The notes beneath the pieces were generated by a model. It ran no database searches and had not been told where the DNA came from. It saw only the letters and a program-made list of their open reading frames with translations. Shown piece by piece: positions 5,774 to 36,017 of a stretch of DNA of 36,017 nucleotides. The translations under genes and the position numbers were made by a program. This DNA is from a virus. The DNA lies in the IMG/VR virus record IMGVR_UViG_3300020189_000035, positions 1-36,017 of that record; one strand, written 5' to 3'. How positions within the stretch are numbered: the stretch's first letter is position 1; every line of letters begins with the position of its first letter.

Positions 5774-5982
5774 TTACAGATTTCACGTTATTTAATGTTC
5801 ATATAATTAATACCCAGACAATGGAATTCATTGACCAAGGTATAATGAGAGCAAGACATGCAATGAATCTTGTAAAAAAGATGGATGCTCAAGGAGTACC
5901 TTGCATTGTTGAAGCAATTGATTCTAGAATAGATCATGATGCTGCTGCTTTTATGGAATATATGTACTCTAAAAATAATTAA
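5770..5982 (+). CDS. Unrecognised small protein
   Basis: 70 aa from ATG 5770, which overlaps the previous stop (ATGA); the frame extends upstream to 5704 but inside the previous gene. A strand-like N terminus (ITDFTLFNVHIINTQTMEF) is followed by a helix (GIMRARHAMNLVKKMDAQG) and a short alpha/beta end (PCIVEAIDSRIDHDAAAFMEYM). Last protein gene before the structured RNA. Function unknown. Confidence 0.7.
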   Translation: MITDFTLFNVHIINTQTMEFIDQGIMRARHAMNLVKKMDAQGVPCIVEAIDSRIDHDAAAFMEYMYSKNN

Positions 5983-6001
5983 ACTTTTTTCATAAAAACT
6001 A

Positions 6002-6030
6002 TTGACATTCATAAAGAACTATAGTATAAT
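6002..6030 (+). promoter_or_regulatory. Sigma70-type promoter of the structured RNA
   Basis: Perfect TTGACA 6002-6007 and TATAAT 6025-6030 with a 17-nt spacer, again preceded by CTA and followed by TTC. Transcription should begin near 6037. No protein-coding start follows for over 700 bases, so it serves an RNA gene, the tRNA-Glu and the 74-aa gene. Confidence 0.9.
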
Positions 6031-6036
6031 AGTTGT

Positions 6037-6669
6037 ATATTGAGGGAAAGGCCCCACCGCGAAAGAGAAAATAGAATTCGCGATTCTATGATCCGGTGAG
6101 TAGATACCTTGAGTCGAGAAGAGGACTTTATCAATCCAAAGGCTCATAACAATAGGTCAAATAACCAGCCTCAGGTTCGCCTGAGACCGAGGAATCGGTT
6201 AAACACATGGTTAAATTGCGAATCAATAGAGCGGGTAGGAAACCCTGTCCGAGCATGAAGAAACGCTCGATGCTATAGTCGGCTAGGAGCCGCGTACTGA
6301 GAACGAGATAGGTTTAGGTCGCAACCTAAACAACACAGAACGGCAGTTCAGGATCTTTCTTCTTTAGGTATAGGAGTAGTTTGCTACTCTCGAGACTGAA
6401 GTTAACAAGTATCAGGTAAATCCGAGACAGGTACCCGCGAATTTCTAAGTTTTTTAGATTGGAATATTACGATTAACAATTCCACATTATTTAACGAATT
6501 GCGTTAACACAATATTTCCAATCACTAAGGTAGTTTGAAATCCCTGAGTAGTCATCAGGTCCTTTAGAAAGGCAGTAAGACCAAATGACGATTGTGACAC
6601 TGAAGTTCAATACCTAGGCGGATCTTGTCATACCTTTGATAGGCGTATATGGAAGGTCCGCCGTTTTTT
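6037..6669 (+). ncRNA. Large structured noncoding RNA (GOLLD/ROOL-like candidate)
   Basis: A gene-free stretch of about 630 nt between a consensus promoter and an intrinsic terminator. It is more GC-rich than its surroundings and dense in perfect hairpins: 6071-6077/6083-6089 (7 bp) enclosed by 6055-6059/6094-6098; 6170-6175/6180-6185 with a UUCG loop; 6186-6190/6195-6199 with a GGAA (GNRA) loop; 6250-6254/6265-6269; 6280-6284/6288-6292; 6312-6319/6324-6331 (8 bp); 6374-6379/6384-6389; 6457-6468/6511-6523 (12 bp with one bulge) enclosing 6491-6496/6502-6507; 6543-6547/6555-6559; 6617-6626/6653-6662. Every frame is broken by stops. I see no tmRNA tag, RNase P core or self-splicing intron core. 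Size, ornate fold, phage origin and position next to a tRNA match the known large RNA classes GOLLD and ROOL, but I cannot align it to either, so it may be a new class. Confidence 0.75.
6617..6669 (+). terminator. Terminator hairpin closing the structured RNA
   Basis: 10-bp stem 6617-6626/6653-6662 (GGCGGATCTT with AAGGTCCGCC, one T-G), with a partly paired 26-nt apical part, followed by G and TTTTTT at 6664-6669. It stands 4 bases before tRNA-Glu, so read-through is needed to make the tRNA; alternatively RNase P cutting at 6673/6674 forms the RNA's 3' end. Confidence 0.75.
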
Positions 6670-6673
6670 ATTC

Positions 6674-6748
6674 GGCCCGTTCGTCTAGTGGTTAGGACAC
6701 ATGGTTTTCATCCATGCAACAGGAGTTCGATTCTCCTACGGGCTACCA
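6674..6748 (+). tRNA. tRNA-Glu (UUC)
   Basis: 75 nt with encoded CCA. Acceptor stem 6674-6680/6738-6744 with G-T at the end, D arm TTCGTCTAGTGGTTAGGAC typical of glutamate tRNA, anticodon loop TTTTCAT with TTC, T loop TTCGATT. It follows the structured RNA terminator by 4 bases. Confidence 0.95.
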
Positions 6749-6787
6749 GATTATGAAAGAGATGATACAATTAATAGGAAGGTATTT

Positions 6788-7012
6788 GTGAAAAAAGAAA
6801 CGAAAAGAATACATAAAGAGACCGCGACTCAAATAGCAACTGGATTGGTCATTAATTACCCCCTAAATCTCTTTCTATTGTATGTTTACATTGAGAGATT
6901 CAATATTACAGATCCAATAATATTGGGTACTATGGTGACCCTGGTGATGACTGTCGTTGCCTATACAAGAATCTTTTTGTTAAGATCATATTTCAGTAAA
7001 AAATATAAATAA
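6788..7012 (+). CDS. Small two-helix membrane protein
   Basis: 74 aa from GTG 6788, with AGGAAG 7-12 bases upstream; the frame extends back into tRNA-Glu, which is not coding. A basic N terminus (KKETKRIHKETATQIATG) precedes two hydrophobic helices (VINYPLNLFLLYVYI and IILGTMVTLVMTVVAYTRIFLL) and a basic tail. This basic-helix-helix-RSYF pattern recurs in small unnamed membrane proteins of marine T4-like phages. Its last codons contain a plus-strand TATAAATA motif. Function unknown. Confidence 0.75.
   Translation: MKKETKRIHKETATQIATGLVINYPLNLFLLYVYIERFNITDPIILGTMVTLVMTVVAYTRIFLLRSYFSKKYK
7004..7011 (+). promoter_or_regulatory. T4-type late promoter (TATAAATA), rightward
   Basis: Exact TATAAATA at the end of the previous gene, with transcription expected near 7017, 66 bases before the ATG at 7083. 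It is the only exact rightward copy I found and would make the 7083 gene late. Confidence 0.6.
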
Positions 7013-28507: not shown

Positions 28508-28921
28508 TTAATCGTTAATAGCATCTGCCCAAGTTGGCAGTGTCATTAAATGATCGTAACCTTGTTCTACAACAGTTTTTTCCGATGCCATATCTATAGT
28601 GAAATTCATATTTTGCTCTTGATCTTGCATAATATTAATTTCCATAGAATTGTCTGCAGTAGGAACTTCCGTAGGATACTGTGCATATGCCGCAATAGGA
28701 GCTTTACCAGCTTCTCTTGCTTCTTTACTTGCATATACAACAACAGAAGCTCGACCATAATAACCAGCTCTCCATACGTGATCTGGCGCATTATCAGGTC
28801 TTACTCCTCCAGGATCTTCAGTATCAACAGTCCGCTTAGTTGTTACTACGTTATGTATAACATGATAAGCATTAGGACAATCCAATCCGTTCTTTAATTC
28901 ATAACTTTTTATTAGTGCCAT
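28508..28921 (-). CDS. Small virion-type protein after the giant fibre
   Basis: 137 aa. Opens MALIKSYELKNGLDCPNAYH; contains VWRAGYYGRASVVVYASKEA and a Met/Asn-rich MQDQEQNMNFTIDM segment. Its ATG overlaps the fibre stop codon (TAATG), so it is translated with the fibre. A fibre-tip accessory, chaperone or adhesin-cap role is possible from position alone; no family recognised. Confidence 0.75.
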   Translation of the reverse strand: MALIKSYELKNGLDCPNAYHVIHNVVTTKRTVDTEDPGGVRPDNAPDHVWRAGYYGRASVVVYASKEAREAGKAPIAAYAQYPTEVPTADNSMEINIMQDQEQNMNFTIDMASEKTVVEQGYDHLMTLPTWADAIND

Positions 28922-31900
28922 TATTTATTCCTTTCTCTTTCAATTTTAAGTTCCTCTCTCAATTCATCTACTTCAGATTTAAGATCTTTAATAGCCTGAA
29001 TTAAAAATGGAGTGATTTTATCATAGTTTACTGTTAGGTAGTCTTTGACTTCTTCGCCATCAATGATGACCTTTTCTTTACCGCCGTTACCAGATTTATT
29101 TATAACAACCGCATTAGGAAGTACTTCTTGTGTATCTTGAGCGATAACAGAAACTTCTTCCAATCCACCCTCGATAACACCGGCAGTTACTTGTTCAGCT
29201 TCTTTCTTCCAATTAAATCGACTTGGTTTCAGTTTCATGATTGTATCAAGACCTTCACCTCTTGGAAGTTCTTGAATATTTTCTTTCAATCTTCTATCTG
29301 ACCAGTAAGCAACAACGTTACCTGGTGTATATACTGAACCATCTAGATATAGACGCCATCCATAATATGTACTGTAAAAACCGTGTACAGTTTGATTCAT
29401 CATCAAACAGATGTTACCATCAAACTGCATACCACCCCAACCGTTACGAGAACCTTGAACTCTCCAAGAACCGTAAGAAGCGTTATTTGGATAGAAGTGA
29501 GCGCCGTTAATACCAGAGTAAATACCGTGATATCCAGTTAAGTTGTTCCAAGTATATTGATAACTATAACCAGATCCACCGTTGAACTGCCATCTAATAG
29601 TACCCATTGGATAATCATCATAAATACGAGTACCTTCGTAAGAGGCATTAGCACCTAACTTAATACCAGTGTGGAACGCAATTCTTAAATCAGGATATGG
29701 ATAACCCCAACCACCACCTTCTTGGAATATTCTATAAGCATGGGCTCCGTTACCAGAGTTACCACCAACACCTTTTGGTTCCCACCAACGGGCGTATTGA
29801 CCTTCGTTACTAATAACATTCATGTTTGAAGTTGACGAAGGATCTACATAATAACCGCTGTTATTTGAATCATAGAAGATTGTACCGTAAATAGCACCAT
29901 CACTTCCGAAGTATTTGCTTCCGTTCCAATAGTTCTCTTTCAGAATGGATCTTCCATTCATATACATTTCGTTTACATTGAAATAGAAGTTAGACCTATC
30001 AGTATAGACATGAGCGTGTCCACCGTTAGCAGGACCAAACTGAATCCAACCGTATGGAGTTTGATGTCTCCATCCCCAGTCACCACCTCTGAAGTAATAA
30101 GAACCATTACCGTAATCTATACTTGATAATCTACTTCTTCCATTAGGATCACAGAAATAACCTGTATTATTTCTATCGTAGAATATATAAGCTCTGAAAT
30201 CGGAAGCATATCCATTACCGTAAATTTCAGTCGTACCGTAATTTGTTCTTAATGCCCAACCGCCGCCTGCATTGAGGAAACCGATATTATTACTGTTATC
30301 AGCATATACATAACCACGAGAGTTATTACCTGAAGTTGTAAATAAGATTTGTGAAGTACTTGATGTAGAATACAATCTCCATCTTGAAGAACTGTCAGAG
30401 TACCAATGCATTGCTGTTGATTGGTTATATAATCCTTCACCTGAGTTGTAGTTTCGGAACCAGTTATCAGCATAGAATTCCCAAGCACGTATATTATTAC
30501 CTCTTACATCACCTGAACCTGAACCGAAGTAATAAGCAGTATCATTACGATCATATAGAATATTTGCTCGTATATCATTCATAGAAGATACACCAGCACC
30601 ATCCCAATAATATGAATTATTATCTCTATCGTAAATAAAGTTAACTTGTAGTGTACCGTTAATCCAAGTAGTACCACCTACATACCAGTTAATATATGTA
30701 CCGTATCCTGACCTTGCGTCAATGTGTAAGTTACCGTTAGTTACTGCGACAGAAGCATAAGAACCAGTCCAATGTCCGTTTGTACCAACTGCGAGGTATT
30801 GACCCCAAGATGGGTTAGGTCCATATAATGTACCACCTCTTTGTCTTCCTGCCGCATTACTTGTACTGTTAGGATCGTAATAATATCCAGTATCATTTGA
30901 ATCATAGAAGATTGGAGCGCGGTAAGAACCACGAGCTTGCATATATCCGGGCTGAGCATATTCTTCCCAAGTACCGTTATAGAATAATTCAGTTCTACCG
31001 TTACGACGCCAAATTGTCATCCATTCATTATCAATGTCGTTATAGATACCACATTCATCATTGTTGGCTGACATGAATACATAACGACCGTTAATTGAAT
31101 AACCTTCCCAGCCGCCTTTACCGCCACCGTTAACCTGAATAGAACCATAGTTACCAGTTGGGTAATCTATATAAATTCCAGTGTTATCATTATAGCAAGG
31201 ATAAATCCTGTTAGTAAGTAATGAATTTAAACGAGATGTACCATTAGGATCTACATAATAGTTTGTATCATTCCAATCATAATAGATTGGAGTTCGAACA
31301 TCTGAAGCAAATACCGCTCTACTTGAAATAGCAGCTCTAAATCCACCGTTGTTGATAATCAACATACCGTGATCGTTTAGTTGGTTAGCACCACCTAGTC
31401 CGCCTGCGTTTGGATGCGACCAACCAATACCATACATATTTGCTGTTGAAGTACCTGCAGAGTTAGGTCTATAAGAAGAACCCATTGCGAATACTAATTG
31501 TAATCTTGTAGAAGCGTAAGAACCAGTTACACCAAGACCGTAGTTATTAAATGTATGATATCCGTTTTGGTCTGATGAATTCCATCTAGAATTTGAATGA
31601 CCGTCAAAATAATAGCCTGTATTATTTCTATCGTAATATACATAAGAATAACTATTTCTTGCATATAGATCGTCACCTCTTGCATGGTTACGATTTTGAA
31701 TAACAGTTTGTGGTGTATCAGTTCTTGGAGCAACACCAGATCCGTTACCACCTGGGTCGTATGAACCATAAGAAACTGTAGGTCCGTAATTACGTCCTTT
31801 TACTCTGATGTGATAGATAGCACCACCGCTACCACCACCTCTTAACCAGATTACAAATCCTCTTTGGTTACCGAAGTGAGCAACTTCTGCAGCAATCGTA

Positions 31901-34900
31901 GTATATGTTTCACGGAAATCATCAAACTGAATGTCGTAAGTCGATCCGCCCCAGCCACCGAAGTTTGTTCTGAGTAAGCAAGTCAATCCACCGTGGTGAA
32001 CACCAGTACCAATTGGGTTCCAAGGAGCTTGTTCAGCGTATCCACGATAAATTTCGATCTCAGTGACAATATCCTGGTTGCCACCCCACCATGTTACTGG
32101 ATAGTAAGTATTTTCGTTACCATTGATAACAATATCACCAGCCCAATACTGAGCATTGTTAAAGTCAGATGTATCAATAGAATTAACAGTAAGTTGATTT
32201 AATCTTGTTGTGCCATTAGGATCTACATAGTAATTAGTATCATTGTTATCATACATAATCGGCGTTCTGAATTGACTGAACGCATATACGATACGGTTAG
32301 TGTCAACTCTGAATGATTCATATTGACCAGGTGAGTAAGATCTTGTTCTTCGACCTGAATAATAGTTAAGATAAATATCGTTGCCGCCTTGTGCATCAAT
32401 ATGTAAATTACCACCGAGATAAATTCTACCAGCACCATTTACAGATTCTATTGTTGCAGCGTTTTCAACTCTAAGTTGATTTACTCTTGTATCTCTAAAT
32501 CTTGAATCACCTGAACTTGAACCGAAGTAGTAAGCTGTGTTATTTCTGTCGTAGAAAATATTTGCTCTAACATCGTTCATGTAAGAAGTACCACCGAAGT
32601 CACCGTAGTATGAAGCATTATTTAAATCATAATATACAGGAGCACGCATATGTCTTGTTGCTCTGAATACTTCAGTTGCTACTTCAGCATTATATTCTAC
32701 TTGATCTCCCCAGAATACAAATGTTGCACCTGTACCATCTGGGTTAGCATCAGATACTCTTATCTCTGCATCAAATGCAGTATTAATAAATCCGATTCTA
32801 TTACCACGAAGTGTTAATGTATTGTATCGTGAATCACTTGCTGGGTTTGAATAATATGATGTATCATTTGTATCGTAGAAGATTGGAGCTCTCCAATCCT
32901 GAGAAGCAGTACCACCAACGCCGTGTAATCTACCATCGTTCGCAATATAAGACCTATCAGAACCATCTTGTCTGAACTGAACAATTCTGTTTGAGTTTCC
33001 GTTAGATACAATGTACCAACGGTTACTGTGCATCTGAATCTTACCTACGCCTGCCCCTGGGTTTCCTGTCCAACTTGAATTACCGTCTGAACGAATATCG
33101 GAACTTGTAATATTAATTGCATTTGCACCACCATTAAAGTCCCAGGTACCAGCAAGTGTAGCAGCGTTTAGATTTGATGTACTTGCTGGGTCAACATAAT
33201 ACCCAGTATTATTACTGTCATAATAACGGGCGAAATATGCATTATTACCATACACATTACTTCCGATGATTACTTCACCACTTGTATTGATTCTGAATCT
33301 TTCAGTACCCCAAGATTGATTTATATGACCGTGATTTTGTCTGATTCTGAATTGGTCGTCTACATAACCGAAACCAACTGACCAAGTTGTTGTATTATAT
33401 CCACTTGAGAATAAGATAGAAGGTCGGTCAGTACCACTAGGTACGCTTTGAGCTGATATATCACCAACTCTAAATTCATGAACAATACCCCAAGAGTGAT
33501 TACCGTATTGGTTAATGGTTCTTGCTGCAGTATAGTTTCCTGGTGTTGAACCTGTTCTGTAAACAGAAAGAATATCTTGTGAAGGTCCATCTTGAATATC
33601 TAATTGTTTAATTCTTGAACCTGAGTTAGGATCTACATACCAATTTGTATCGTTTAAATCATAGAAGATTGGAGTACGAAGTTGTCCGCGAATATCTGCT
33701 CGACCAGCATTGGTCAATCTCATTTGATATACGCCGTTTCCACCTCCAGCTGTAAATTGTAAATTACCACCTGAATTTGTACTTAGGTTATCTGGTGATT
33801 CGTAAATTTGCCATTGGTTACCACCGTTCCATTTAATACCTTCTGAAGGACCTGGATCGTTAATAGTTATTGCATTAATATTATTAAGATTATAATTATT
33901 GAAATTCCAGTTACCAGCAACATTACTACCATCTTTAGGATCTACATAATATCCAGTATTATCTCTATCTCTTAATATTCTTGCATCTATAATGTCGGCT
34001 GTAATATCATCAACAGTTAAATCGCCGACAATATTAACATCTCCACCAATTTGTACATCATCAAGTACTTCTAAATCATCAACTAATAAATTAGATTCAG
34101 CATTACGTCTCTTCAACATAATACCAGCAAATTGTCTTAAAGCACCACCTGAGTTGTAGTTCATTAAGATACGAATTCTTACATAGTAACAGCCGCCTCC
34201 GTCAGACCCATTATATGGAGTATGAGATGTTGGAATAGTTGTATGATTTCTGTATGTTGTCCAAGAAGTTCCTGTATAGTTTGCACCGCCAACTACAAAG
34301 TATGTTGTACCTGTATTACCAGCAATTGGTCTCTTCTCACTATCATATCTTTCAATACCATAATAAACTAAACCACCTGAACCTGAAATATACTTAACAG
34401 AAATTTCACCGTATAATTCTTCACCAGGAGCAACAGGAATTAAGTCAGAATAGAATGTTCTATAAGCAGATGTTTGTAATACATAAGAACCTGCGAAAGG
34501 ACCATCTGTTGTTCTAACATATTCTGATGTTGTGGTTGTAAGTGGGCTTTCATTAGGTGCCATTGCTTTAATGACACGCTTATCAAAATATTCTGTTCCA
34601 TCAAATAGTACTAAGTCAGCTCCGCCTGAACCGTATGTCTTAACAAGTTCAATATTTTCATTACCGCCATTAAGTACAATACTGCCTGCAGATAATATAC
34701 CATTAAAGTGAGCATTACCATTATCAAGGTCAATACTTGCTCTTACATTACCAGAACCTACGAATACTAATTCATTTGGATTAGATGAACCAAAGTATGA
34801 ATAAGCAGCATTGTTATTGCCTGCCCAGAAGATACCCCAATTAGTAGCAGTGTTCCAAATCCAATGTGAATAATCTTGAGCTTCTAATAGTTTATTATTA

Positions 34901-36017
34901 TCACCATTGGAACCTGTATCCCAACCTTGTCTATAAATTCGACCATTAATCATTAATGCTCGGTTTGTATTACCTGCAGCTGGATTTAAGTAATATGTTG
35001 TATCGTTTGAATCATAATAGATTGGTGCTCGCATTTGATTTGTTGCGAGGAAATAACCATTTTCTGTTTCAGCTTGTTTATTACCATTATAATAAAAATC
35101 AACACCTGCATTACGATCTGTTCTTATGACCCACTTATTATCGGTGTCGTTGTAAATACCTGCTTCATCAACTCCACTTGCCATGAAATTCCATTGACCA
35201 GCAATAGAATAACCAGCCCAACCATTTCTGGTACCACCAACTTCCATTGTGGCATAATCACCTGAAGCAACATCCATATAATAGTTTGTGCTATGATCTA
35301 AATAATATCTTAATGCTTGAATTGCATTGAATCTTGATGTATTATTAGGATCTACGTAATAGCCTGTATTATTTGAATCATAGAAGATTGGAGTACGTAA
35401 TTGATTATTTGCTAGGAAGTATCCGTTTTCTGTTCTTGCTTGTTCACCGCCATTATACATCAATCTCATTGCGGCCTGACGGTCAGCATACCAGAACCAT
35501 TGATTATTTACATCGTTATAAACACCTGTTCGGTTGGCTCCATCATGCATAAAGACAGAACGATCATCAATACTAAATCCTGAATATCCACTTCTTGCAC
35601 CGCCGCTTACAGCAAGTGAACCAAACGTTCCTGTAGGTTCTCTTAATACAACAGCGTTACCATCAAGCTTAATAGTATCCATTCTGGATTCGCCAGCAAA
35701 ATTGCCAAAGTAAGCAGTATTATCTAGGTCATAATAAATTGGTGAATAGGTAGCAGTATCAACTCTTAACGTACCAAATATTTGAGAAGTATAACCACCG
35801 TTCGAAGCACCTGACGAACCTGTGAAAGTACCCCATCTTTGTAATGGTGACCAAGCATTTGTACCAAGTGTTTGTGAAAGATATATTGGTACTCCACCGC
35901 CGTGGTCAAACTTGTGGAATTTATGAGCCCAGGTATTACTATTGTAATTACCTCTCATCATCAATCCGTTAGTGCTTGAGTTTGCTCCGCCAATATTTTC
36001 ATTACCAACATTGATGT
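28921..36017 (-). CDS. Giant tail fibre protein with S74 chaperone domain (5'-partial)
   Basis: At least 2,365 residues; no start is needed at 35964 because the frame stays open to the window edge. Seventeen copies of a motif like IFYDSNNTGYYVDPNxTSRxN are spread along the chain, joined by Gly/Asn/Tyr-rich strands; a second longer repeat (G-x-R-x-GW-x-GYSI...GIYND-x-DN-x-W...YNG...E-NGYFLA) occurs about four times. The C terminus is an intramolecular chaperone of endosialidase type (peptidase S74): SDRRLKENIQELPRGEGLD, KPSRFNWK, GVIEGGLEEVSVIAQDTQEV, ending in a coiled coil. In this family the chaperone trimerises the fibre and cuts itself off. The protein is likely the host-binding long fibre or adhesin. 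It is followed by the 137-aa gene with overlapping stop and start. Confidence 0.93.
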   Translation of the reverse strand, partial: INVGNENIGGANSSTNGLMMRGNYNSNTWAHKFHKFDHGGGVPIYLSQTLGTNAWSPLQRWGTFTGSSGASNGGYTSQIFGTLRVDTATYSPIYYDLDNTAYFGNFAGESRMDTIKLDGNAVVLREPTGTFGSLAVSGGARSGYSGFSIDDRSVFMHDGANRTGVYNDVNNQWFWYADRQAAMRLMYNGGEQARTENGYFLANNQLRTPIFYDSNNTGYYVDPNNTSRFNAIQALRYYLDHSTNYYMDVASGDYATMEVGGTRNGWAGYSIAGQWNFMASGVDEAGIYNDTDNKWVIRTDRNAGVDFYYNGNKQAETENGYFLATNQMRAPIYYDSNDTTYYLNPAAGNTNRALMINGRIYRQGWDTGSNGDNNKLLEAQDYSHWIWNTATNWGIFWAGNNNAAYSYFGSSNPNELVFVGSGNVRASIDLDNGNAHFNGILSAGSIVLNGGNENIELVKTYGSGGADLVLFDGTEYFDKRVIKAMAPNESPLTTTTSEYVRTTDGPFAGSYVLQTSAYRTFYSDLIPVAPGEELYGEISVKYISGSGGLVYYGIERYDSEKRPIAGNTGTTYFVVGGANYTGTSWTTYRNHTTIPTSHTPYNGSDGGGCYYVRIRILMNYNSGGALRQFAGIMLKRRNAESNLLVDDLEVLDDVQIGGDVNIVGDLTVDDITADIIDARILRDRDNTGYYVDPKDGSNVAGNWNFNNYNLNNINAITINDPGPSEGIKWNGGNQWQIYESPDNLSTNSGGNLQFTAGGGNGVYQMRLTNAGRADIRGQLRTPIFYDLNDTNWYVDPNSGSRIKQLDIQDGPSQDILSVYRTGSTPGNYTAARTINQYGNHSWGIVHEFRVGDISAQSVPSGTDRPSILFSSGYNTTTWSVGFGYVDDQFRIRQNHGHINQSWGTERFRINTSGEVIIGSNVYGNNAYFARYYDSNNTGYYVDPASTSNLNAATLAGTWDFNGGANAINITSSDIRSDGNSSWTGNPGAGVGKIQMHSNRWYIVSNGNSNRIVQFRQDGSDRSYIANDGRLHGVGGTASQDWRAPIFYDTNDTSYYSNPASDSRYNTLTLRGNRIGFINTAFDAEIRVSDANPDGTGATFVFWGDQVEYNAEVATEVFRATRHMRAPVYYDLNNASYYGDFGGTSYMNDVRANIFYDRNNTAYYFGSSSGDSRFRDTRVNQLRVENAATIESVNGAGRIYLGGNLHIDAQGGNDIYLNYYSGRRTRSYSPGQYESFRVDTNRIVYAFSQFRTPIMYDNNDTNYYVDPNGTTRLNQLTVNSIDTSDFNNAQYWAGDIVINGNENTYYPVTWWGGNQDIVTEIEIYRGYAEQAPWNPIGTGVHHGGLTCLLRTNFGGWGGSTYDIQFDDFRETYTTIAAEVAHFGNQRGFVIWLRGGGSGGAIYHIRVKGRNYGPTVSYGSYDPGGNGSGVAPRTDTPQTVIQNRNHARGDDLYARNSYSYVYYDRNNTGYYFDGHSNSRWNSSDQNGYHTFNNYGLGVTGSYASTRLQLVFAMGSSYRPNSAGTSTANMYGIGWSHPNAGGLGGANQLNDHGMLIINNGGFRAAISSRAVFASDVRTPIYYDWNDTNYYVDPNGTSRLNSLLTNRIYPCYNDNTGIYIDYPTGNYGSIQVNGGGKGGWEGYSINGRYVFMSANNDECGIYNDIDNEWMTIWRRNGRTELFYNGTWEEYAQPGYMQARGSYRAPIFYDSNDTGYYYDPNSTSNAAGRQRGGTLYGPNPSWGQYLAVGTNGHWTGSYASVAVTNGNLHIDARSGYGTYINWYVGGTTWINGTLQVNFIYDRDNNSYYWDGAGVSSMNDIRANILYDRNDTAYYFGSGSGDVRGNNIRAWEFYADNWFRNYNSGEGLYNQSTAMHWYSDSSSRWRLYSTSSTSQILFTTSGNNSRGYVYADNSNNIGFLNAGGGWALRTNYGTTEIYGNGYASDFRAYIFYDRNNTGYFCDPNGRSRLSSIDYGNGSYYFRGGDWGWRHQTPYGWIQFGPANGGHAHVYTDRSNFYFNVNEMYMNGRSILKENYWNGSKYFGSDGAIYGTIFYDSNNSGYYVDPSSTSNMNVISNEGQYARWWEPKGVGGNSGNGAHAYRIFQEGGGWGYPYPDLRIAFHTGIKLGANASYEGTRIYDDYPMGTIRWQFNGGSGYSYQYTWNNLTGYHGIYSGINGAHFYPNNASYGSWRVQGSRNGWGGMQFDGNICLMMNQTVHGFYSTYYGWRLYLDGSVYTPGNVVAYWSDRRLKENIQELPRGEGLDTIMKLKPSRFNWKKEAEQVTAGVIEGGLEEVSVIAQDTQEVLPNAVVINKSGNGGKEKVIIDGEEVKDYLTVNYDKITPFLIQAIKDLKSEVDELREELKIERERNK
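29820..35745 (-). repeat. 17 interspersed YYD-N-NTGYYVDP motif repeats in the fibre
   Basis: Counted in the translation: variants include YDLDNTAYFG, YDSNNTGYYVDP, YDSNDTTYYLNP, YDRNNTAYYFGS, YDWNDTNYYVDP and YDSNNSGYYVDP. Spacing is irregular, roughly 80 to 250 residues. At DNA level the copies are diverged but keep similar strings, so recombination between them could change fibre length. Confidence 0.85.

Follow-up and report, generated by a model that had tools for sequence, protein, structure and literature searches.

We conclude that positions 6037-6669 of the window almost certainly hold the gene for a conserved, structured noncoding RNA, and that this RNA belongs to an uncatalogued family of large phage RNAs. 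The window is the whole 36,017-base stretch of DNA that we analysed, the record of an uncultivated T4-like virus of bacteria. It encodes the major capsid protein gp23 (Pfam Gp23, E 3e-146) and a large terminase, which is 58-59% identical to those of its best-listed isolate matches, the Sinorhizobium phages phiN3 and phiM12; judged by these head genes, it is a contig of a T4-superfamily phage. The gp23 gene and the RNA gene lie on opposite strands and converge; the RNA gene is 1.2 kb past the 3′ end of gp23. Direct support exists for a conserved promoter, a covarying core with optional modules, the lack of any kept reading frame, and a patchy presence at several genomic addresses. As read from the alignments, the RNA is a conserved 5′ core of ~400 nt followed by exchangeable, optional 3′ modules, a cassette that is patchily distributed. 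A preliminary description had taken the locus for a single RNA gene of ~630 nt; its structured, noncoding character held up, but the gene is not uniform.

Relatives, boundaries and strand

The preliminary description proposed that homologues be gathered and their base pairs examined for covariation. Using nhmmer, we found the core, module A (6039-6440, + strand), in 55 viral contigs besides the window. This count starts from 58 loci that match the module A profile; removal of the window and of repeated contigs leaves 54, to which one partial copy is added. The first relatives came from loci fetched via neighbouring proteins. When viral contigs were scanned with module A patterns, the stretches returned proved to be relatives in 19 of 20 and 49 of 50 cases and, with a pattern free of promoter elements, in 30 of 35; the remaining five of the 35 show no match beyond the pattern. 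These counts may lack close relatives of the window's own record. The 51 copies with a readable 5′ end reduce to 27 representatives at 97%, 23 of them full length, and alignment A3 is a plain MAFFT alignment of 23 distinct full-length module A sequences, window included.

A perfect sigma-70-type promoter, TTGACA-17-TATAAT with 12/12 consensus matches, occupies 6002-6030 on the + strand, as first described. It is one of five such perfect sequences in the window and lies 8 nt 5′ of the conserved start ATTGAGGG. Among the copies with a readable 5′ end, TTGAC[A/T]-17-TATAAT stands 8-9 nt before ATTGAGGG in 51/51, a figure that includes the window and counts one contig twice. The presence of the -10 element is partly selected, because TATAAT was in the main search pattern, from which 49 of the 51 copies came; the -35 element was in no pattern. 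The 30 relatives returned by the promoter-free scan were all already known as promoter carriers, and that scan of viral contigs yielded no relative beyond those known.

At the other end, the terminator claimed at 6617-6669 (+ strand) is borne out as a structured module, E, that combines the stem GGCGGATCTT/AAGGTCCGCC, a conserved insert CATACCTTTGATAGGCGTATATGG and a T run. Its outer stem covaries among relatives (0/2000 in the arm-swap test described below). A consensus scan missed this terminator because its loop is long. The insert is kept in the relative L146, where no T run comes straight after the stem.

Between these boundaries we found no coding frame, in agreement with the preliminary description: the stop-free maxima within 6037-6669 are 35-60 codons over six frames. 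Across 23 module A sequences, the longest stop-free run of the + strand falls in differing frames and is mostly shorter than 60 codons. Six relatives have longer runs (L132, 107 codons; L146, 105; L097, 102; L134, 81; L110, 80; L137, 74), and the closely related L132, L146, L110 and L137 share one open frame that is not kept in the others. Because this frame is not shared across the RNA family, we read the long runs as chance; in the L132/L146/L110/L137 sub-group the stop-free runs of 74-107 codons are probably fortuitous, and a short protein product may exist there. Conserved coding potential had been named at the outset as something that would argue against an RNA gene, and no frame is kept across the family.

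Folding energy was dropped as proof of an RNA, since it fails to choose a strand. The minimum free energy z-score is -2.83 on the + strand and -5.16 on the - strand (0/20 shuffles as good on each), so that the - strand of 6037-6669 folds with a stronger score than the transcribed one. As energy picks no strand, both the strand and the reality of the RNA rest on the promoter, the T run, an excess of G-U pairs and covariation. Over 25 column pairs, 33 cells hold G-U and 7 hold A-C, which supports the + strand.

The core and its 3′ modules

The locus had drawn attention through a density of hairpins thought to exceed chance. Density alone is only moderate evidence, and it is covariation that supports the structure. 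For 34 pairs tested on A3, 88.5% of 740 cells are paired, against 72.9% in shuffles; the covariation score is 0.413 against a shuffled 0.168 (0/500), with slid controls at 0.139 or below; and 118 cells are changed on both sides, against 40.2. Pairs that show a both-side change number 22, against 17.0 in shuffles (2/500), and a measure of further pair types on A3 is not above shuffles (115/500). These comparisons with shuffles overstate significance, because we picked the pairs with the alignment already in view, and among sequences that are related.

We also applied an arm-swap test, in which the 3′ arm of each sequence is compared with the 3′ arms of its relatives for pairing with its own 5′ arm, over 2000 permutations. 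Eleven of 14 module A helices gave 7/2000 or fewer, and P7 (108/2000), PKa and P12 did not pass. The test scores whichever ungapped stem between two segments pairs best, so that for P2, P3 and P13 different helices are scored in different sequences. Counts from this test are given in brackets below; all features lie on the + strand.

The 5′-terminal hairpin P1 (6044-6055), closed by GGG/CCC, is invariant in the alignment and therefore uninformative for covariation. P2 (6056-6059/6094-6097, region 6055-6098; 2/2000) encloses P2a (6071-6079/6082-6089; 0/2000); both show both-side changes, P2a is deleted in some relatives, and C6055 could close either P1 or P2. P3 (6110-6146; 0/2000) has an inner hairpin and a UUAUC loop, and its best stem differs among relatives. 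P4 (AACCA/TGGTT, 6163-6212; 0/2000) closes P5, a UUCG hairpin (6170-6185; 0/2000), and P6, ACCGA-GGAA-TCGGT (6186-6199; 0/2000). The GGAA of P6 is present in 23/23 sequences; the loop has 4 nt in 16 of them and 5 nt in the other 7. A GGAA kept on a varying stem is as expected of a docking tetraloop. A candidate contact between the P3 loop UUAUC and a GAUAA after P6 can be seen by eye in many A3 rows and is absent in the window.

Further along the core, the PKb hairpin AGCAT/ATGCT (6252-6256/6270-6274, region 6250-6274; 0/2000) surrounds GAAGAAACGCTCG, with 113/115 cells paired in eight fully paired versions. A proposed pseudoknot, PKa, in which the loop CTCG would pair with an upstream CGAG, overlaps PKb in the window; with a swap count of 536/2000, that claim was dropped. 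P9 (CGGCT/AGCCG, 6280-6292; 1/2000) is followed by P12 (GAGAT/ATCTT, 6305-6309/6353-6357), which is 93.9% paired and shows both-side changes at 3/5 pairs, yet is not significant in the swap test (456/2000). P12 encloses P10, the 8-bp stem GTTTAGGT-CGCA-ACCTAAAC (6312-6331; 0/2000), and P11, GAAC-GGCA-GTTC (6338-6349; 1/2000). P13, GAGTAG-TTTG-CTACTC (6374-6389; 7/2000), has a purine-rich 5′ arm that looks SD-like by eye. The hairpins named in the preliminary description, with the UUCG loop of P5, the GNRA-type GGAA loop of P6 and the 8-bp stem of P10, are thus present, as is the long outer stem that it noted in module B.

For searches we built a core model, R1, of 141 positions. Since alignment A4 misaligns P10, the model leaves out P10 and P7, which makes it weaker than a complete one would be. 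R1 scores full-length true copies at E 2e-20 or better, and the end-cut copies L130 and L140 at 2e-16 and 5e-4.

Along the + strand of the window the order is promoter, module A, B, C, E and then tRNA-Glu. Module B (6458-6522) has a variable outer stem (6458-6468/6511-6522; 0/2000, n=17) around a core, ACGATTAACAATTC...GAATTGCGTTAACA (6469-6509), that is near-invariant in the alignment; a nearly fixed core on a changing outer stem would be like a binding site on a changeable stalk. The closing stem of module C, GGTAGTTTGAA/TTCAATACC (6529-6614), has weaker support (78/2000) and holds the hairpins C1 (6543-6559; 2/2000), C2 with a UAGA loop (6561-6572; 0/2000) and C3 (6573-6602; 11/2000). The outer stems of B and E and all three C hairpins thus give 11/2000 or fewer. 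The inner stems of B (1568/2000) and E (925/2000) are beyond the reach of the test because they hardly vary. By eye, module D seems to be a variant of module B, with ACGA and CACUAUUUAAC in common.

The modules occur in several combinations over 54 contigs: A+B+E or A+B+C+E in 24, A+B+C in 1, A+B in 8, A+D in 10 and A alone in 11. The tally relied on short motifs, and the C motif missed the window's own variant, so that A+B+E in the tally stands for A+B+C+E in the alignment; the 11 contigs counted as A alone include three truncated by the end of a contig or locus (L027, L130 and L140) and one, L120, whose B escaped the motif. Conversely, three contigs (L006, L007 and L014) carry B-C-E without A; in L006 a tRNA-Glu gene lies downstream. 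Modules B and E are present near the locus end of L149, and L123 has lost the 3′ half of module A. Because its modules are naturally shuffled, the RNA family offers built-in deletion and swap experiments.

Genomic addresses and possible roles

The RNA is found at several addresses. At the first, beside gp23 (the window, L109, L111, L120, L134, L096 and L027, with several capsid genes named by eye), it is followed by tRNA-Glu or hemC and, in several loci, then by the same small membrane-protein-like gene. The window's tRNA-Glu (TTC) gene at 6674-6748 (+ strand) begins 4 bases 3′ of the RNA gene and is a neighbour, not part of the RNA. The same slot holds the porphobilinogen deaminase gene hemC in L109 (1373-2215), L120 (1223-2062) and L138 (1031-1867, in reverse-complement coordinates), recognized by Pfam in L120 (E 3e-56) and by eye in L109 and L138. 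Glutamyl-tRNA and hemC both serve tetrapyrrole synthesis by the C5 route, and their alternation here may be a coincidence. Across 25 loci scanned, tRNA-Glu lies directly downstream in 8, six of them with module A; in L137 the tRNA is cut by the locus end. Also near the RNA in L137, 1363-2310 (- strand) encodes a TET-associated glycosyltransferase (Pfam TAGT, E 2e-47), a sign of DNA base modification, and another L137 neighbour is GIY-YIG-like by eye, yet without a Pfam hit.

At the second address the RNA lies between a staphylococcal-nuclease-like gene (SNase, E 4e-8) and the gene for ribosomal protein bS21 (Ribosomal_S21, E 4e-17). All ten bS21-bearing loci of an initial set have bS21 on the same strand as the RNA, 173-633 nt downstream of it. 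The nuclease and bS21 genes are 838-1470 nt apart in eleven loci with the RNA, some of which also hold one or two small ORFs in this gap, and 68-113 nt apart in ten loci without it (L198, L200-203, L205-207, L210 and L212). Since relatives show this site without the RNA, we regard the RNA as an accessory cassette. By eye, the RNA-free gap of L200, L202 and L206 contains a promoter-like sequence, and this bS21 promoter resembles the RNA promoter of L117 and L121. This resemblance points to recombination at repeated early promoters as the means by which cassettes are exchanged. A third address is represented by L142, where an Hsp20 gene and an unidentified ORF flank the RNA.

Presence at these addresses is patchy. 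We found module A in 2 of 80 capsid-neighbour loci (L017 and L027), many of which have short flanks; of 14 capsid loci inspected closely, L017 has module A and five have <1 kb of downstream flank. L015 begins within the RNA and shows the E module only, and the flanks of L015 and L016 are <1.3 kb. Module A is upstream of bS21 in 12 of 57 bS21 loci of viral contigs, and the other 45 have no visible module A, although L209 and L224 among them begin <160 nt upstream of bS21 and are too short to tell. A bS21 link as a general rule was dropped on this count, and the adjacency amounts to one locus in one lineage. Elsewhere, bS21 is encoded away from the RNA in G001 (156 kb, with the RNA) and G002 (137 kb, with B-C-E), was found in 0/5 RNA-negative records of 106-164 kb (G003-G007), and was not seen in four shorter RNA-positive records of 23-55 kb (G013, G014, G022 and G023). 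It is encoded by 2/8 isolates, HTVC008M and Melnitz-3, both without the RNA. These co-occurrence counts are small and confounded by kinship.

The genes behind the RNA thus vary, from tRNA-Glu, hemC, hsp20 or bS21 to a plain terminator. Because they differ, we favour action in trans, and by analogy we incline, by a little, towards an RNA scaffold that works like GOLLD, ROOL and OLE. The host RNA polymerase would transcribe the RNA abundantly and early in infection, and the transcript would fold by itself into a stable particle, whether a monomer, a homo-oligomer or an RNP. In trans, it would then scaffold or sequester other molecules, as has been proposed for GOLLD, ROOL and OLE. We take the window to contain a founding example of this uncatalogued family of multi-domain RNAs, which T4-superfamily phages carry as a promoter-headed cassette.

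Two other roles deserve consideration. The RNA might be a sponge, decoy or antisense regulator whose exposed loops bind host or phage nucleic acid or an RNA-binding protein. In modules B and C the loops vary less in sequence than the stems do, as expected of a binding site, but module B is missing from part of the family. A comparison of the 156-kb record with its own RNA gave no outside match at E<=0.001, a search that short antisense stretches would escape; we consider this role rather improbable. A cis-acting leader, controlling transcription or translation of the next gene (tRNA-Glu, hemC, bS21 or the small membrane protein), would fit the same-strand gene that is usually next in the loci read, including bS21 in the ten loci above. 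It would also fit L117, where the core runs into a small ORF and no terminator is visible, so that a leader role is possible there. Yet the genes behind the RNA are unrelated to each other, a terminator or T-run module stands between RNA and gene in many members, bS21 has its own promoter-like sequence where the RNA is absent (L200, L202 and L206), and 400-630 nt is long for a leader; for the family we judge this unlikely.

Comparison with known RNAs and a possible partner

To our knowledge, few RNA classes have such size and complexity. We searched 4227 Rfam models, as the preliminary description had suggested for GOLLD, ROOL, tmRNA, RNase P and introns, and no family, mundane classes included, was matched. 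The window gave no match at gathering cut-offs, the 901 bases at 5900-6800 gave no GOLLD, ROOL, OLE, intron, RNase P or tmRNA at E<=10, and seven homologous loci gave no GOLLD, ROOL, OLE, group I or II intron, RNase P or tmRNA at E<=3. ARAGORN found no tmRNA in the window. At low thresholds the window returned PreQ1 and a microRNA (opposite strand) and a CRISPR repeat, and the homologous loci returned snoRNA-like and other noise, all far below gathering scores; we ascribe the window's matches to chance.

Searches of genomes gave a similar picture. BLASTN of four queries against 50,697 phage records found no relative: matches to the window RNA covered no more than 7% of the query, chiefly near its promoter, with a best listed E of 0.2; neither the L134 nor the L096 module A had any match; and the 3′ modules matched over short stretches only (E 0.8). 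A scan of GTDB genomes with one pattern returned 4 stretches, none a relative by profile HMM or R1. With R1, the 156-kb record G001 gave a single copy of the RNA, and nothing above noise came from ten isolates (phiM12, phiN3, XG4, RHph_I1_18, Melnitz-3, S-CAM9, ICP1, phage K, HTVC008M and P-SSM2). We regard as noise the R1 matches at E 0.003-0.83 in XG4, S-CAM9, phage K, HTVC008M, P-SSM2 and G002/G003, and those at E 0.018-0.63 in L006, L033 and six other loci. No description of the window's RNA was found in the open-licence literature searched.

The patchy presence at several addresses might recall what is left of a mobile element, such as a decayed intron or ribozyme, but this is highly improbable given that no intron, RNase P or tmRNA family is matched, that the RNA is intergenic with its own conserved promoter, that its structure is maintained by compensatory change and so is not decayed, and that no transposase or reverse transcriptase was identified among twenty proteins scanned (ten plus ten others).

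GOLLD is described as a large, phage-encoded RNA of unknown function with many covarying helices, often near a tRNA (PMC12286853). The window RNA is likewise phage-encoded, large and covarying, with a tRNA nearby and variability at one end. The two differ in which end that is: in GOLLD the 3′ region is reported as universal and the 5′ region as less conserved (PMC12286853), whereas here the 5′ end is commonest (module A in 54 contigs), modules B, C, D and E are optional, and three contigs carry B-C-E without A. GOLLD also exceeds 800 nt, about twice the core of the window RNA. The solved ROOL measures 659 nt (PMC12286853), close to the 633 nt of the window RNA, which shares the phage setting and, in the window, a tRNA neighbour, but exchanges its 3′ modules between relatives. 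GOLLD and ROOL are RNA-only cages of unknown purpose (PMC12286853), a 14-mer and an octamer respectively. Descent from an ancestor shared with GOLLD or ROOL, with extreme divergence and the same cage retained, would accommodate the length, phage origin, window tRNA, dense helices and GNRA loop, but we think it very improbable in view of the failure of their covariance models to match and of the reversed arrangement of conservation.

On the same grounds the earlier tentative placement in the GOLLD or ROOL class is not upheld. Of the length and setting on which it drew, size, complexity and phage setting do resemble those RNAs, and the tRNA neighbour proved optional in the family. The idea that this is a structured phage RNA of a new type finds support in the homologues, the covariation and the conserved promoter. 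The RNA is long, noncoding and phage-encoded, has its own promoter and shows a covarying fold, as befits the kind of large structured phage noncoding RNA. The sequence comparisons therefore support a new family that is of the kind of GOLLD and ROOL and a member of neither, and the resemblance in size, complexity and phage setting makes a similar mode of action a fair hypothesis. Long noncoding RNAs of ICP1 (~800 nt) and phage K are reported as abundant lytic transcripts that their authors compare with GOLLD and ROOL (PMC7567579, PMC9241854); R1 found nothing at E<=1 in ICP1 and reached chance level in phage K (best E 0.445).

OLE, an ornate RNA of ~600 nt found mostly in Bacillota, is reported to bind ribosomal protein bS21 by means of a stem that is SD/anti-SD-like (PMC12054373); in one of the lineages studied here the RNA lies upstream of a phage bS21 gene. 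No OLE model matches the window RNA, for which bS21 binding is a hypothesis. Ribosome binding by GOLLD has been reported from a pull-down (PMC12286853). These two reports, and the position of the RNA upstream of bS21 in one lineage and of tRNA-Glu in another, are the reasons to consider the translation machinery, such as ribosomes or phage bS21, as its partner, a link that we hold to be doubtful. Less probable still is the fuller scheme in which a modular, self-folding RNA would grip the host ribosome or phage bS21 early, with cassette swaps retuning host translation. Phage bS21 can enter ribosomes (PMC6375957), but its expression has been linked to late-stage replication (PMC9723584), and an early RNA fits such a partner poorly for that reason. 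If the scheme were true, viruses would have in this RNA their own equivalent of the OLE-bS21 particle, and the bS21 neighbourhood provides a concrete binding lead toward function for RNAs of this kind. A further family without detectable kinship to GOLLD or ROOL, carried by T4-superfamily phages, suggests that phages have invented ornate RNAs repeatedly.

Elsewhere in the window, a deaminase-like ORF (dCMP_cyt_deam_1) at 2277-2708 shares 38 bases with the tRNA-Ile gene at 2671-2746. A 2347-residue ORF at 28921-35964 contains many near-repeats of the type YDxNNTxYYVDP and a C-terminal SDRRLKENI stretch; judged by eye, it is probably a tail fibre with an intramolecular chaperone.
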